Below are positions 43,748 to 48,103 of a stretch of DNA of 64,000 nt, in pieces. Numbering within the stretch: the stretch's first letter is position 1; every line of letters starts with the position of its first letter. Origin of the DNA: Kitasatospora sp. NA04385 (lineage in GTDB: Bacteria > Actinomycetota > Actinomycetes > Streptomycetales > Streptomycetaceae); NCBI RefSeq assembly GCF_013364235.1, contig NZ_CP054919.1, positions 1,858,740-1,922,739 on the forward strand, read 5' to 3'. A program made the position numbers and the translations under genes. The notes beneath the pieces were generated by a model. That model worked only from the letters and a program-made list of their open reading frames with translations, was not told the origin of the DNA and did no database searches.

Positions 43748-44592
43748 TCAGAGGTTGTACCAGCCGCCCCAGGTGGAGTTGCTGTAGTAGACGTCCTGGC
43801 TGTGGGTGAGGCCGTCGGTGGTGTGGGCGTAGAGGTAGACGTTCTGGCCGCTGCCCAGGGCGTCGAGCTGGTCGACGAGGCTGCCCGACCTGCTGGCCCA
43901 GCCGTTCCAGCTGCCCATCGCGTTGCCGTCGGTGCTGTGCAGGAGCCCGTCGTTGGTGGCGGCGTACAGGTGCACCGTGCCACCCGTGGTGGTGGCCGCC
44001 GCGAGCTTCTTGACCTGGCTGCCGTCAATAATGTTCCAGCCGCTCCAGACGCCCGCCGCGTAGTCGCCGTCGTTCTCGTGCAGCAGACCGTCGTTGGTCA
44101 CCGCGAACAACCGGACCGTGTCACCCACCGCCGTACCCACCAACTGCTTGACATTGCCACCCGTCAGGTCGTACCAACCCGTCGAGAAGGCGTCGGTCAC
44201 CGGATCGAGGTCCGCACTACGGGGCGCACCGTTCTGCAGCACCGCGTACAGCCGGATCTTGCCCGCCACGGTCACCGCGTCCATGTCGACGACCAGACTC
44301 CCCGGAATGGTGTGCCACCCGCCCCAGGAACCCGTGCTGTAGTCACCGATCGTCTCGCGCAGCGTCCCGTCCTGCATCACCGCGAACAGGTGCACCCGAC
44401 TACCCTCCGCCGCCGCCGTCAACGAAGCCACCAGACTCCCGTCCAACGGCTTCCACCCGTCCCACCCACCACTGGGGTAGTGCCCGTCATCGATCCGGAT
44501 CCTCCCGTCCGACGTCACCTGGAACACGTGCCCCACACCGTTGATCATCACGGAGGTGATCTGGCCGCTCTGCGGAGCCAGACCCGACGGCG
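43748..44592. repeat. 845-bp duplicated propeller segment, copy 1
   Basis: Matches 46688-47532 (offset 2940) with 9 base differences by eye, about 99% identity. The identity runs exactly from the stop codon to the codons for PSGLAPQ at the domain junction; sequences either side are unrelated. The pattern is that of domain-limited gene conversion or a recent duplication. Confidence 0.95.
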
Positions 44593-44965
44593 GGGCGGGG
44601 TAGGGGTCGATCCCGTCGTTGGTCAGCCCGCCGGCACCCGCGCAGCTCCACTGGCCCGGGCCTGCGGCGCGCAGGACCTTCTCGGCTATCAGGATCTGCT
44701 GCTGCTTGGTGGCCAGGTCGGCGCGGGCCGCGTACTGCGTTCCGCCGTACGCCTCCCAGGTGCTCTGCTTGAACTGCAGTCCGCCGTAGTAGCCGTTGTT
44801 GGTGTTGATGCTCCAGTTCCCGCCGCTCTCGCACTGGGCGACCTTGTCCCACGTGGCGACCGAGGCGGCCTGGGCCGGTGCGGTCACCACCAGGGAGCAG
44901 CCGAGTGCCGCGAGCACCGTGGCGGCGAGGAGTGCGGACTTTCCGGTACGGATCTTGCCGGGCAT
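43748..44965 (-). CDS. Rpf-type muralytic transglycosylase fused to a six-repeat propeller-like module
   Basis: 405 residues: Sec signal ([17 protein letters not shown]), then the Rpf lysozyme-like domain (36-115) with [20 protein letters not shown] and catalytic Glu46, [16 protein letters not shown] short Pro linker leads to six repeats of ~46 residues (130-405), each with a W-x-GW ... G-S-L-V ... L-(Y/F)-AV-x-DG-L pattern, as in tectonin/PLL-like beta-propellers that bind carbohydrates. Rpf enzymes cut peptidoglycan glycan strands during spore germination and resuscitation. I know of no Rpf with this C-terminal module in S. coelicolor (which uses LysM). Last gene of the three-gene block. 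The propeller DNA is 99% identical to the 46688-48103 gene. Confidence 0.9.
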
Positions 44966-45026
44966 GCTGGGTCCTTGGGTGAGGAGGGAGTGGTCGGCCA
45001 CGCGGGCGGGCGGCGCGGCCGCGGGG

Positions 45027-46592
45027 TCAGAGGTTGTACCAGCCGCCCCAGGCGGGTCTGCCGTAGTCGGCATCCTGGCTGTGGGTGAGGCCGTCGGTGG
45101 TCGAGGCGAAGAGGTGAACGGCGTCGCGGTCGGCGGAGGCGGCGAGGTGGGCGACCAGGCTGCCGGGCCGGGAGGTCCAGCCGTTCCAGCGGCCGGTGCT
45201 GTAGTCGCCGTCGGCGCTGTGGAAGAGACCGTCCTGGGTTCCGGCGTACAGGTGGACGGTGTCGTTGGTGCCGGCGGCAGCGAGCGAGGTGACCAGGCTG
45301 CCGCCCAGGTCGTGCCAGCCGGTCCAACTGCCGGCGCCGTAGTCACCGTCGTCCGTGTGCAGCAGGCCGTCCTGAGTGACCGCGTACAGGTGCACGGTGT
45401 TGCGAGTGGTGGCCGCGACCAGTTGGGATACCTGACTGCCGCCCAGGTCGTGCCAGTCGGTCCAGGCACCGGTGCCGTAGTCCTGGTCGGCGGTGCGGGG
45501 CACGCCGTTCTCCCGCAGCACGGCGAACAGGCGCACGGTGGTACCGGTGGCCGCACTGGTGATGCTCTCGATCCGGCTGCCCGGCAGGTAGCGCCAATCG
45601 CTCCAGGCACCGGTGGCGTAGTTCTTGTCGGCGGTGTGCAGCAGGCCGTCCTGGGTGACCGCGTAGAGGTGCACGGTGTCGCCGACGGCCGTGGCGGAGA
45701 GCGAGACCACCAGGCTGCCGGGCAGCTGTTGCCAGCCGTTCCAGGCTCCGGCGTCGTAGTTCCCGTCGTTGGTCTCGATGTGGCCGTCGGCGGTGACCCG
45801 GTACAGGTGGGCCGTGTGACCGGTCATCGCCGATGCCAGCAGGGGCCCCTGCGGGATCGGGGCGCCACCGCTGAACCAACCGCTGCTGTAGTCCGCCTGG
45901 AGGGCCCCGTAGAAGGTGCGGGCCATCCGCGCGTAGCCGGAGTCGTTGGGATGCAGTCCGTCCACCATCTCGGGCACGGACGCGCCGGCGGTCGCCAGGG
46001 CGGGGCCGTCGACGAAGGTGAAGTGCCTGCCCTGCTGCTGTTCGACCGGCGCGAGTTGACGCATCCGGTCGTTGTACTGGGCGAGTTGGCCGGAGGTCAG
46101 TTGGTTGTTCAGCCCCGGCGAGGTCGGGACGACGCCCTGCATGATGACGGTGATGCCGGGGCGGTCGGCGAAGATCCGGTCGACCAGTGCGGTGGCGCGG
46201 TCCGCAGCACCGGCCTGGCTCCCGTGGTCGAGGTCGTTGGCTCCGACGTGGAGCAGGACGACGTCGGGCCGGGCCATGGCGAGCCAGCGGTCCACGCTCG
46301 CCCGCACCTGGTCGATGCTGTAGCCGCTGTGCCCCTCGTTCTCGGCGTCGCTGCCCGGGCCGTTGCGCATCGAGCCGACGAAGTCGACGGTGTAGGCGGA
46401 CTGCTGGGCGATCAGATCGGCCAGCGGCTGACGGTAGCCGCCACCGGTGGCGCTGCCCACGCCCCAGGTGATGGAGTCGCCGAGCGGCATGACACGGACG
46501 ACGTGCGGTGCGGGGGCAGTGGCCGCGGAAGCGGCGGTGGGAACGGCCGGGGCCAGCAGGCATGCCGAGGCCAGGGCGATGAGACGCTTCAC
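45027..46592 (-). CDS. Secreted SGNH/GDSL hydrolase with a C-terminal six-repeat propeller-like module
   Basis: 521 residues. Signal peptide [18 protein letters not shown]; catalytic SGNH domain (30-235): block [14 protein letters not shown] (Ser40), block [13 protein letters not shown] (Asn119), block [12 protein letters not shown] (Asp211, His214). The linker leads to six W-x-W/GW ... L-x-G-S repeats, the same module as in the neighbours but diverged (about 60% by eye). May de-acetylate or de-acylate wall polymers. GTG start with AGGAGAATCC upstream. Middle gene; the gap to the NlpC-like gene contains a hairpin and to the Rpf gene is 61 bp. Confidence 0.9.
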
Positions 46593-46676: not shown

Positions 46677-46687
46677 GGTGGTCCGGG

Positions 46688-47532
46688 TCAGAGGTTGTAC
46701 CAGCCGCCCCAGGTGGAGTTGCTGTAGTAGACGTCCTGGCTGTGGGTGAGGCCGTCGGTGGTGTGGGCGTAGAGGTAGACGTTCTGGCCGCTGCCCAGGG
46801 CGTCGAGCTGGTCGACGAGGCTGCCCGACCTGCTGGCCCAGCCGTTCCAGCTGCCCATCGCGTTGCCGTCGGTGCTGTGCAGGAGCCCGTCGTTGGTGAC
46901 GGCGTACAGGTGCACCGCGCCACCCGTGGTGGTGGCCGCCGCGAGCTTCTTGACCTGGCTGCCGTCAATAATGTTCCAGCCGCTCCAGACGCCCGCCGCG
47001 TAGTCGCCGTCGTTCTCGTGCAGCAGACCGTCGTTGGTCACCGCGAACAACCGAACCGTGTCACCCACCGCCGTACCCACCAACTGCTTGACATTGCCGC
47101 CCGTCAGGTCGTACCAACCCGTCGAGAAGGTGTCGGTCACCGGATCGAGGTCCGCACTACGGGGCGCACCGTTCTGCAGCACCGCGTACAGACGGATCTT
47201 GCCCGCCACGGTCACCGCGTCCATGTCGACGACCAGACTCCCCGGAATGGTGTGCCACCCGCCCCAGGAACCCGTGCTGTAGTCACCGATCGTCTCGCGC
47301 AGCGTCCCGTCCTGCATCACCGCGAACAGGTGCACCCGACTACCCTCCGCCGCCGCCGTCAACGAAGCCACCAGACTCCCGTCCAGCGACTTCCACCCGT
47401 CCCACCCACCACTGGGGTAGTGCCCGTCATCGATCCGGATCCTCCCGTCCGACGTCACCTGGAACACGTGCCCCACACCGTTGATCATCACGGAGGTGAT
47501 CTGGCCGCTCTGCGGAGCCAGACCCGACGGCG
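46688..47532. repeat. 845-bp duplicated propeller segment, copy 2
   Basis: Second copy of the segment at 43748-44592; most of the base differences between the copies are silent or conservative. Confidence 0.95.
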
Positions 47533-48103
47533 CGTCGTCGACGATCCTGTTGTAACGGAGGCCGAAGTAGTTGGCGAAGGTGCCGCTGCCGACGGTGCCG
47601 GTGCCCTTCTGCATGTCGTCGGCGGTGTTGGCCTCGGCGATGTAGGCGAAGGTGCCGGCGGCCTTGTTGACCCAGTGGTCGAACAGGACGATGTGGCCGG
47701 TGCTGGGGATGTAGCCGTCCCCGGGGTCGTTGTCGAGGGCGTCGCCCGGCTGCAGGTCGGTCAGCGCGACTCGGCTGGTCAGCGAGCGGACGTCGAGGCT
47801 GTCGGTGTTCTCGCTGCTACCCAGGTGCCAGGCCATCGAGACGAAGCCGGAGCAGTCGCTGCGGTAGGAGCGGCCGCCGACGTCGGTGGCGGTGGCGGTC
47901 TGGTCGTACGGGATGTTGCGGTTGTACCAGTCGTTGGCCCGGGAGAGGACCTCGCTGCGGGTGATCTGGCCGCCGACCGACGAGGCGGCCTGGGCGATGG
48001 TGGCGGTGGCCACCGTGAGGGCGGTGGTGGCGACCGCGCCGGAGGCGGCGATGGCGGTGGCCAGGGCGAGGCTGGTGAGCTTGGAGCGGCGGGAAGAAGG
48101 CAT
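46688..48103 (-). CDS. Secreted NlpC/P60-like cysteine hydrolase with a six-repeat propeller-like module
   Basis: 471 residues: long signal peptide (to QAASS near 41), catalytic domain 45-190 with RSDCSGFVSMAWHL (Cys84), TDLQPGDAL and STGHIVLFDHW (His137), the Cys/His pattern of NlpC/P60-like peptidoglycan hydrolases or amidases, then PSGLAPQ and six propeller repeats nearly identical to those of the 43748 gene. Probable role: cell-wall cleavage targeted by a lectin-like module. First gene of the block; a 460-bp leader upstream contains a 30-codon ORF. Annotation as NlpC/P60 is by motif; family assignment is moderate. Confidence 0.86.
   Translation of the reverse strand: MPSSRRSKLTSLALATAIAASGAVATTALTVATATIAQAASSVGGQITRSEVLSRANDWYNRNIPYDQTATATDVGGRSYRSDCSGFVSMAWHLGSSENTDSLDVRSLTSRVALTDLQPGDALDNDPGDGYIPSTGHIVLFDHWVNKAAGTFAYIAEANTADDMQKGTGTVGSGTFANYFGLRYNRIVDDAPSGLAPQSGQITSVMINGVGHVFQVTSDGRIRIDDGHYPSGGWDGWKSLDGSLVASLTAAAEGSRVHLFAVMQDGTLRETIGDYSTGSWGGWHTIPGSLVVDMDAVTVAGKIRLYAVLQNGAPRSADLDPVTDTFSTGWYDLTGGNVKQLVGTAVGDTVRLFAVTNDGLLHENDGDYAAGVWSGWNIIDGSQVKKLAAATTTGGAVHLYAVTNDGLLHSTDGNAMGSWNGWASRSGSLVDQLDALGSGQNVYLYAHTTDGLTHSQDVYYSNSTWGGWYNL

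Follow-up and report, generated by a model that had tools for sequence, protein, structure and literature searches.

A 64,000-nucleotide stretch of DNA from Kitasatospora sp. NA04385 (contig NZ_CP054919.1, positions 1,858,740 to 1,922,739; hereafter the window) carries three minus-strand genes, g1, g2 and g3, that are arranged head-to-tail with intergenic gaps of 95 and 61 bp. They encode putatively secreted enzymes with NlpC/P60-like, SGNH and Rpf-type catalytic domains, respectively, and each protein ends in what is predicted to be a six-bladed propeller. The propeller-coding DNA of g1 and g3 is about 99% identical, and similar sharing is found between neighbouring genes for different enzymes in related genomes, which suggests, from sequence comparison, that the propeller behaves as an exchangeable cassette copied between neighbouring genes. 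The trio may represent secreted wall lysins that are co-aimed by one swappable lectin at the variable wall glycopolymer of a competing actinomycete, a reading that we regard as evenly poised between right and wrong.

Three enzymes and their propellers

The domain of g3 matches Transglycosylas/Rpf (Pfam PF06737, 1.5e-32), and its alignment with RpfB (1xsf) includes the CE..GNW motif; here the start of g3 is taken as the in-frame ATG at 44965, the open reading frame (ORF) as listed beginning at 45610. Gene g2 encodes a Lipase_GDSL_2 domain whose closest Protein Data Bank (PDB) chain is 2vpt, which we take to be a CE3 acetylxylan esterase (scores in Table 1). For g1 no peptidase match was found in Pfam, and a profile of its family (19 sequences) gives weak matches to NlpC/P60 chains (E 0.003-0.005; MepS/Spr 0.003-0.004); Cys84 and His137 are invariant across the 19 members. 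Sec-type signal peptides, judged by eye, are putatively present at the N-termini of all three proteins. Peptidoglycan is the substrate of Rpf, NlpC/P60 and CHAP domains.

The C-terminus of each protein consists of six repeats of about 46 residues, as detected with a blade hidden Markov model (HMM). These repeats match no Pfam family above its cut-off, and no choline-binding repeat family was found in the three proteins in Pfam at E values up to 1. The PLL-family lectin chain 8q83 is matched by g1 alone (4e-8) and by g2 alone (1.1e-8), and a profile of 25 propeller modules matches the PLL/PHL chain 8q82 at E 4.8e-21. An AlphaFold2 model of g1 forms a propeller over residues 197-471 (mean predicted local distance difference test score, pLDDT, 79.5; predicted template modelling score, pTM, 0.62). 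Foldseek places PHL and PLL lectins on top of the matches to this model (E 1e-14), and on realignment six-bladed fucose lectins rank first (Z 28.2, root-mean-square deviation (rmsd) 2.4-2.5, 264-267 residues), with a closed six-bladed propeller in the comparison to 7c39_A (Z 28.2, rmsd 2.4, 264 residues). The module is predicted from the model to be a lectin-type six-bladed propeller related to PLL, and by sequence comparison PLL is its nearest family, though with six blades instead of seven. The PLL/PHL lectins of Photorhabdus resemble it in sequence and occupy the first Foldseek ranks but have seven blades, whereas the modules in the window have six and are fused to enzymes; the fucose lectins AAL, AFL and AofleA share the six-bladed fold, yet the top two rows are only 15-16% identical to the g1 model. 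The ligands and binding-site layout of PLL are taken here from PMC12203525.

The first-pass annotation had described three head-to-tail genes with these catalytic domains, each ending in six PLL-like repeats, and the coordinates, Pfam, the blade HMM and the g1 model bear it out. It was correct but understated, having missed the near-identity of the g1 and g3 modules, which differ at 8 of 843 nt (8 codons, 4 of them synonymous). This near-identity begins in the linker and stops at the stop codon, and outside these edges similarity is at background level. Elsewhere in the same genome, a paralogue of g1 (locus L009) is identical to g1 at 551 of the first 600 nt and bears a propeller that is 28% identical, another locus (L011) carries Rpf and CHAP enzymes on a different propeller type, and overall the propellers at other loci are 28-33% identical to that of g1. 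One genome therefore holds one propeller on enzymes of different kinds and one kind of enzyme on different propellers, and the presence of three loci with different propellers fits several targets. A phage origin of the g1 propeller was considered in a viral_contigs scan with the single protein, and no relative was confirmed. As a separate observation, the propellers of loci L054, L059, L060, L109 and L011 contain two-blade internal repeats of about 282-290 nt that are 84-91% alike in DNA, as if blades had been amplified in pairs.

Clusters and propeller sharing in related genomes

Within the genus, at least 34 of 70 genomes, the own one among them, have a match to the g1 propeller (E 1e-5). 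A 25-row propeller profile, used with a cut-off of E 1e-20, has matches in 38 genomes out of 297 in the family: 33 belong to this genus and 2 and 3 to two others. In the class it matches 3 of 296 genomes, again with the own genome counted. Part of the matches were listed and fetched with their flanks, which gave at least 16 clusters with two or three enzymes that bear a propeller. These comprise CHAP+Rpf (4), NlpC+Rpf (3), CHAP+SLT-like (2) and CHAP+SGNH (2), together with one cluster each of CHAP+Rv2525c-like+Rpf, NlpC+Rpf+SGNH (the window), CHAP+Rpf+SGNH, NlpC+SLT-like and NlpC+Rv2525c-like+GH76. The working label "SLT" denotes proteins that match PHROGs endolysin and tape-measure families and have no Pfam catalytic or NCBIfam match, and "GH25" was the working label for the Pfam family Rv2525c_GlyHyd-like. 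The statistics on the 16 clusters cover neither UmbA-like proteins (see below) nor unassigned or PKD-type propeller proteins (in L061, L064, L075, L077, L079, L080 and L113-L116, and one of the four L177 propeller genes), and they count the SGNH gene of G022, which is apparently frameshifted 5' of its propeller.

The first-pass annotation had looked to the three-gene order as a unit that might recur in relatives, and this part is not borne out: the window alone among the 16 clusters combines NlpC, SGNH and Rpf, and the trio is absent from its site in four relatives. The nearest arrangement is SGNH+CHAP+Rpf in another genus (L108), with Rpf on the opposite strand. Scattered, independently fused genes had been named as the outcome that would speak against a co-targeted set, and the picture is divided, since combinations vary and single-gene loci exist (for example, L009, L045, L046 and L055), while clusters with shared propellers exist as well.

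Every one of the 16 clusters has one Cys peptidase and no more, whereas shuffling gives a mean of 7.8 such clusters and attains 16 in a fraction 8e-5 of 100000 rounds. In 13 clusters one peptidase is combined with a single Rpf or SLT-like enzyme; here the shuffled mean is 4.8, and none of 100000 shuffles attains 13. These frequencies overstate independence because some clusters share descent (G026 with G047, G007 with G000c). Judged from the domains, this composition reads as a logic of cutting two different bonds. It also bears on the proposal that the enzymes degrade fungal or plant polysaccharides or fungal walls, the propeller serving as a fucose-type binding module. The propeller's closest structural matches and homologues do bind fucose or O-methylated sugars, the nearest structure to the SGNH domain of g2 is presumably an acetylxylan esterase, and a Catenulispora cluster includes a GH76 enzyme; however, an NlpC- or CHAP-type peptidase is present in 16 of 16 clusters and, like Rpf, these are peptidoglycan-acting enzymes, so that we consider this proposal very improbable.

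Propellers are more alike within clusters than the types of their enzymes would predict. Identity averages 69.7% over 24 within-cluster pairs; the corresponding means are 38.5% (233 pairs) when enzymes of one type are compared between genomes and 36.1% (902 pairs) for other types, and when propellers were permuted among genes of one type the mean was 37.5 and the maximum 49.5, with 0 of 5000 permutations reaching 69.7%. Long neighbour copies are found in DNA between Rpf and CHAP genes in G068 (100% over 861 bp), within the clusters of G005 (95.8% over 864) and G054 (92.4% over 879), between NlpC and Rpf genes in K. humi (99.1% over 1054 bp), between SLT-like and NlpC genes in G317 (98.0% over 879) and, with the genes on opposite strands, between CHAP and Rpf genes in G124 (94.9% over 887). 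Clear sharing, by which is meant that at least one pair within a cluster has a higher mutual identity than either partner has with any propeller from another genome, is seen in 10 of the 16 clusters. In a maximum-likelihood tree of 44 propellers, which lacks the five rows from K. humi and Catenulispora whose propeller starts were hand-set, enzyme labels are mostly scattered: Rpf requires 9 changes for 10 rows (shuffled mean 9.1), NlpC 8 for 8 rows (7.5) and all labels together 23 (24.9; as low in 29 of 200 shuffles). CHAP labels are partly clustered, with 9 changes for 16 rows (shuffled mean 13.3; as low in 6 of 500).

The NlpC and Rpf proteins of K. humi both bear a seven-repeat module with Pfam DUF346, which is a PLL-like lectin according to PMC7778903, and a model of this module (mean pLDDT 78.7) aligns with PLL4 at Z 45.5 and rmsd 1.4 over 323 residues. 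Other NlpC+Rpf clusters have common six-bladed modules, so an NlpC+Rpf pair shares its module whichever kind it is. The earlier idea of different lytic domains on one common module is strengthened, at the level of sequence, by the recurrent clusters and their shared propellers.

Candidate targets and competing explanations

In the mechanism that we propose, the Rpf-type enzyme g3 would cut the glycan strand and the NlpC/P60-like enzyme g1 the peptide, and the SGNH esterase g2 would probably strip acyl groups that hinder both. The propeller would anchor each enzyme to a polysaccharide of the wall, most likely a teichuronic- or teichoic-type glycopolymer that varies between species and belongs to a competing actinomycete. 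Copying between neighbours, by gene conversion or segmental duplication, would keep partner propellers alike so that a change of target also reaches the partner enzyme, and several loci per genome would serve several targets, one each. The domain architecture, the propeller copies with their edges, the make-up of the clusters, the empty site in relatives and the occurrence of this propeller family on UmbA-like proteins are read directly from sequence, and the fold is predicted; sugar binding, co-targeting, the enzyme activities and a non-self target are all elements that we infer.

A link to antagonism is suggested by the umbrella toxins. Twelve trypsin-like proteins among the fetched loci bear this propeller family, and the 25-module profile matches one of them (G021:C5:10051-10908, locus L047) at 3.6e-86. 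This UmbA-like protein in turn matches the solved chains 9oee (1.9e-56) and 8w20 (2.7e-52); 8w20/8w22 we take to be the umbrella particle, although its PDB name reads "Secreted esterase". All 12 trypsin-like proteins have TAASC or TAAGC at the catalytic His site and GDT or GDA at the Ser site, and published UmbA proteins are without a complete catalytic triad (PMC11062931). The wall polymers that UmbA lectins, six-bladed ones included, bind on target species are hypervariable and teichuronic-acid-like, and the umbrella particle has been retargeted by lectin swapping (both from PMC13274773). UmbA resembles the window in that the same propeller family occurs on UmbA-like proteins of relatives, but it carries a degenerate trypsin-like N-terminus where the proteins of the window have NlpC/P60-like, SGNH and Rpf domains. 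A further difference is that propellers are diversified among UmbA-like proteins and common within a locus among hydrolases of the window type. Two adjacent UmbA-like pairs have trypsin-like parts that are 92 and 85% identical beside propellers that are 31 and 34% identical; a third pair, whose genes lie apart in one genome, shows values of 74 and 58%, and between genomes (63 pairs) the means are 66 and 47%. UmbA-like neighbours thus diversify their propellers, whereas hydrolase neighbours share them. Loci L047 (G021) and L058 (G038) are arrays of UmbA-like genes in which the degenerate trypsin-like domain hardly varies and the propellers diverge strongly.

These pairs also bear on neutral homogenisation, whereby repeat-rich neighbours would recombine without being selected to keep one target. 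Recombination is promoted by repeats, the internal repeats resemble one another as well, and the most similar pairs have a low synonymous divergence (dS, 0 to 0.02), as expected from recent copying alone. However, the adjacent UmbA-like pairs indicate that adjacency alone need not homogenise propellers, nonsynonymous divergence (dN) is well below dS in G054 (0.04/0.22) and G039 (0.09/0.33), suggesting constraint on both copies, and the presence of one peptidase per cluster is left unexplained. Homogenisation of this neutral kind appears improbable to us.

More weight is given to a self-directed role in wall remodelling or germination, in which the propeller would recognise the producer's own species-specific glycopolymer and the propellers of a locus would change together with that polymer. 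Enzymes with Rpf domains, and those with NlpC/P60 or CHAP domains, commonly work on the wall of the cell that makes them. The proposal is modelled on the choline-binding modules that hold pneumococcal hydrolases on their own wall, and the pneumococcal choline-binding family, in which various wall hydrolases bear one common wall-binding module, is a working precedent and the closest functional parallel found (PMC4929436); its module is unrelated and its ligand, choline, is conserved, whereas the ligand of the window-type modules probably varies. Sharing within loci and divergence between species fit a self-directed role equally well. On the other side stand the three loci of one genome with strongly different propellers, the absence of the trio from its site in four relatives and the patchy distribution of the propeller family in the genus. 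On balance we hold a self-directed role to be rather unlikely, and other actinomycetes to be a more likely target than self.

Several results weigh against the proposal of lysins co-aimed at a competitor. Six of the 16 clusters do not show clear sharing (G000c, G026, G047, G013, G028 and G007), and of these G000c is a second locus in the genome that holds the window. Where one partner is an SGNH enzyme, which mostly has its own propeller, mean identity is 46% (6 pairs), and pairs without one average 78% (18 pairs); in the window the g2 propeller is 52-53% identical to those of its partners g1 and g3. The diversification control consists of two adjacent UmbA-like pairs, and the clusters are partly related by descent. 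The own genome gave no match to the UmbA trypsin domain at 1e-5 (the same query matches 27 of 70 genus genomes at 1e-20), and at E 0.01 the propeller profile did not match the UmbA chains of solved structure. An immunity gene was not recognised, and the ligand class of the propeller is likewise something that we infer.

A further step, tentative at best and taken with less confidence than co-aiming as such, is to view these loci as enzymatic counterparts of umbrella toxins, in which two peptidoglycan bonds would be cut, each secreted set would be directed at the hypervariable wall glycopolymer of one competitor, the shared lectin cassette would be re-targeted as a unit and several loci with different lectins would hedge, the enzymes of any one locus staying on a single target. 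If the proposal is right, nature offers in these loci a series of ready-made lysin pairs in which the part that aims them changes between species as one unit, and their comparison would reveal how lectin specificity is re-coded and supply actinomycete-specific lysins. A directly testable contrast also lies in the two fates of one propeller stock, which is diversified where UmbA-like proteins are neighbours and shared where hydrolases are. No description of such clusters was found in the titles and abstracts of the open-licence literature.

Site of the block, coordinates and further observations

The segment with the three genes is missing in relatives G025 and G024, where the downstream HNH-type gene directly adjoins the upstream PNPOx gene; their alignments with the window run up to 43664-43676 and resume at 48656-48666. 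G023 and G028 share the left edge and have wider absences, to 49249 and 51896, respectively. The trio is an accessory block, either gained here or lost in the relatives, and its absence at the same site in four relatives speaks against a core germination system; the germination role suggested earlier is unsupported. Positions 43664-43676 form a recurrent breakpoint, as the alignments of all four relatives (L200-L203) end there and then differ, as at an insertion hot spot. The gene at 42801-43553 lies 195 bp downstream of g3, and its product is a lipoprotein-like protein whose C-terminal domain is of HNH/GmrSD type; the gene is matched in 47 of 70 genus genomes (E 1e-40) and is, for this reason, probably not part of the block.

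Table 1. Features of the three-gene segment (positions in the window)
Feature	Position	Strand	Length or basis
Segment with the three genes, missing in G025 and G024	43665..48655	.	~5.0 kb; blastn of window to L200-L203
g1, NlpC/P60-like with C-terminal propeller, putatively secreted	46688..48103	-	471 aa
g1 NlpC/P60-like catalytic region, residues 44-188 (Cys84, His137)	47540..47974	-	invariant columns; MepS/Spr profile match
g1 predicted six-bladed propeller, residues 197-471	46691..47515	-	AlphaFold2 and structure alignment
g1 copy of propeller DNA cassette, 843 nt with stop	46688..47530	-	8 differences from g3 copy; identity stops at both edges
g2, SGNH/GDSL esterase with C-terminal propeller, putatively secreted	45027..46592	-	521 aa
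g2 SGNH domain, residues 30-228	45909..46505	-	phmmer to 2vpt 2.4e-26; Pfam 2.6e-21
g2 predicted propeller, six blades	45030..45839	-	blade HMM
g3, Rpf-type enzyme with C-terminal propeller, putatively secreted	43748..44965	-	405 aa
g3 Rpf domain, residues 36-112	44630..44860	-	phmmer to RpfB 1xsf, 1.8e-26
g3 copy of propeller DNA cassette, 843 nt with stop	43748..44590	-	8 differences from g1 copy

Some actinomycete wall enzymes are controlled by riboswitches. A search for such control in window positions 40000-52000 gave one chance match to a microRNA family (E 0.83), and nine related loci at gathering scores gave a tRNA as the single match. Scans of 43300-48800 found no sigma-70 promoter or terminator, such scans being uninformative for this bacterial group. 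A common chromosomal site for the clusters was sought by comparing the flanks of 25 loci and was rejected: the window shares flanks with none, and five locus pairs, mainly involving L044, L052 and L109, have at least two common flank genes.

In a set of 80 loci the blade HMM found propellers in four (L119, L136, L162 and L177), and several of the others show different propeller-like repeats by eye. Locus L177 of Catenulispora pinistramenti has four propeller genes side by side, encoding NlpC-like, Rv2525c-like, GH76 and one unassigned protein. Tandem genes for large proteins in L075 (G010) and L061 (G004) have PKD-like regions before the same propeller family and no assigned catalytic domain, with five such proteins in a row in L075. 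In G113, two CHAP-propeller genes (L110 and L111) lie 3.2 Mb apart on opposite strands, and their propellers are identical in protein sequence.

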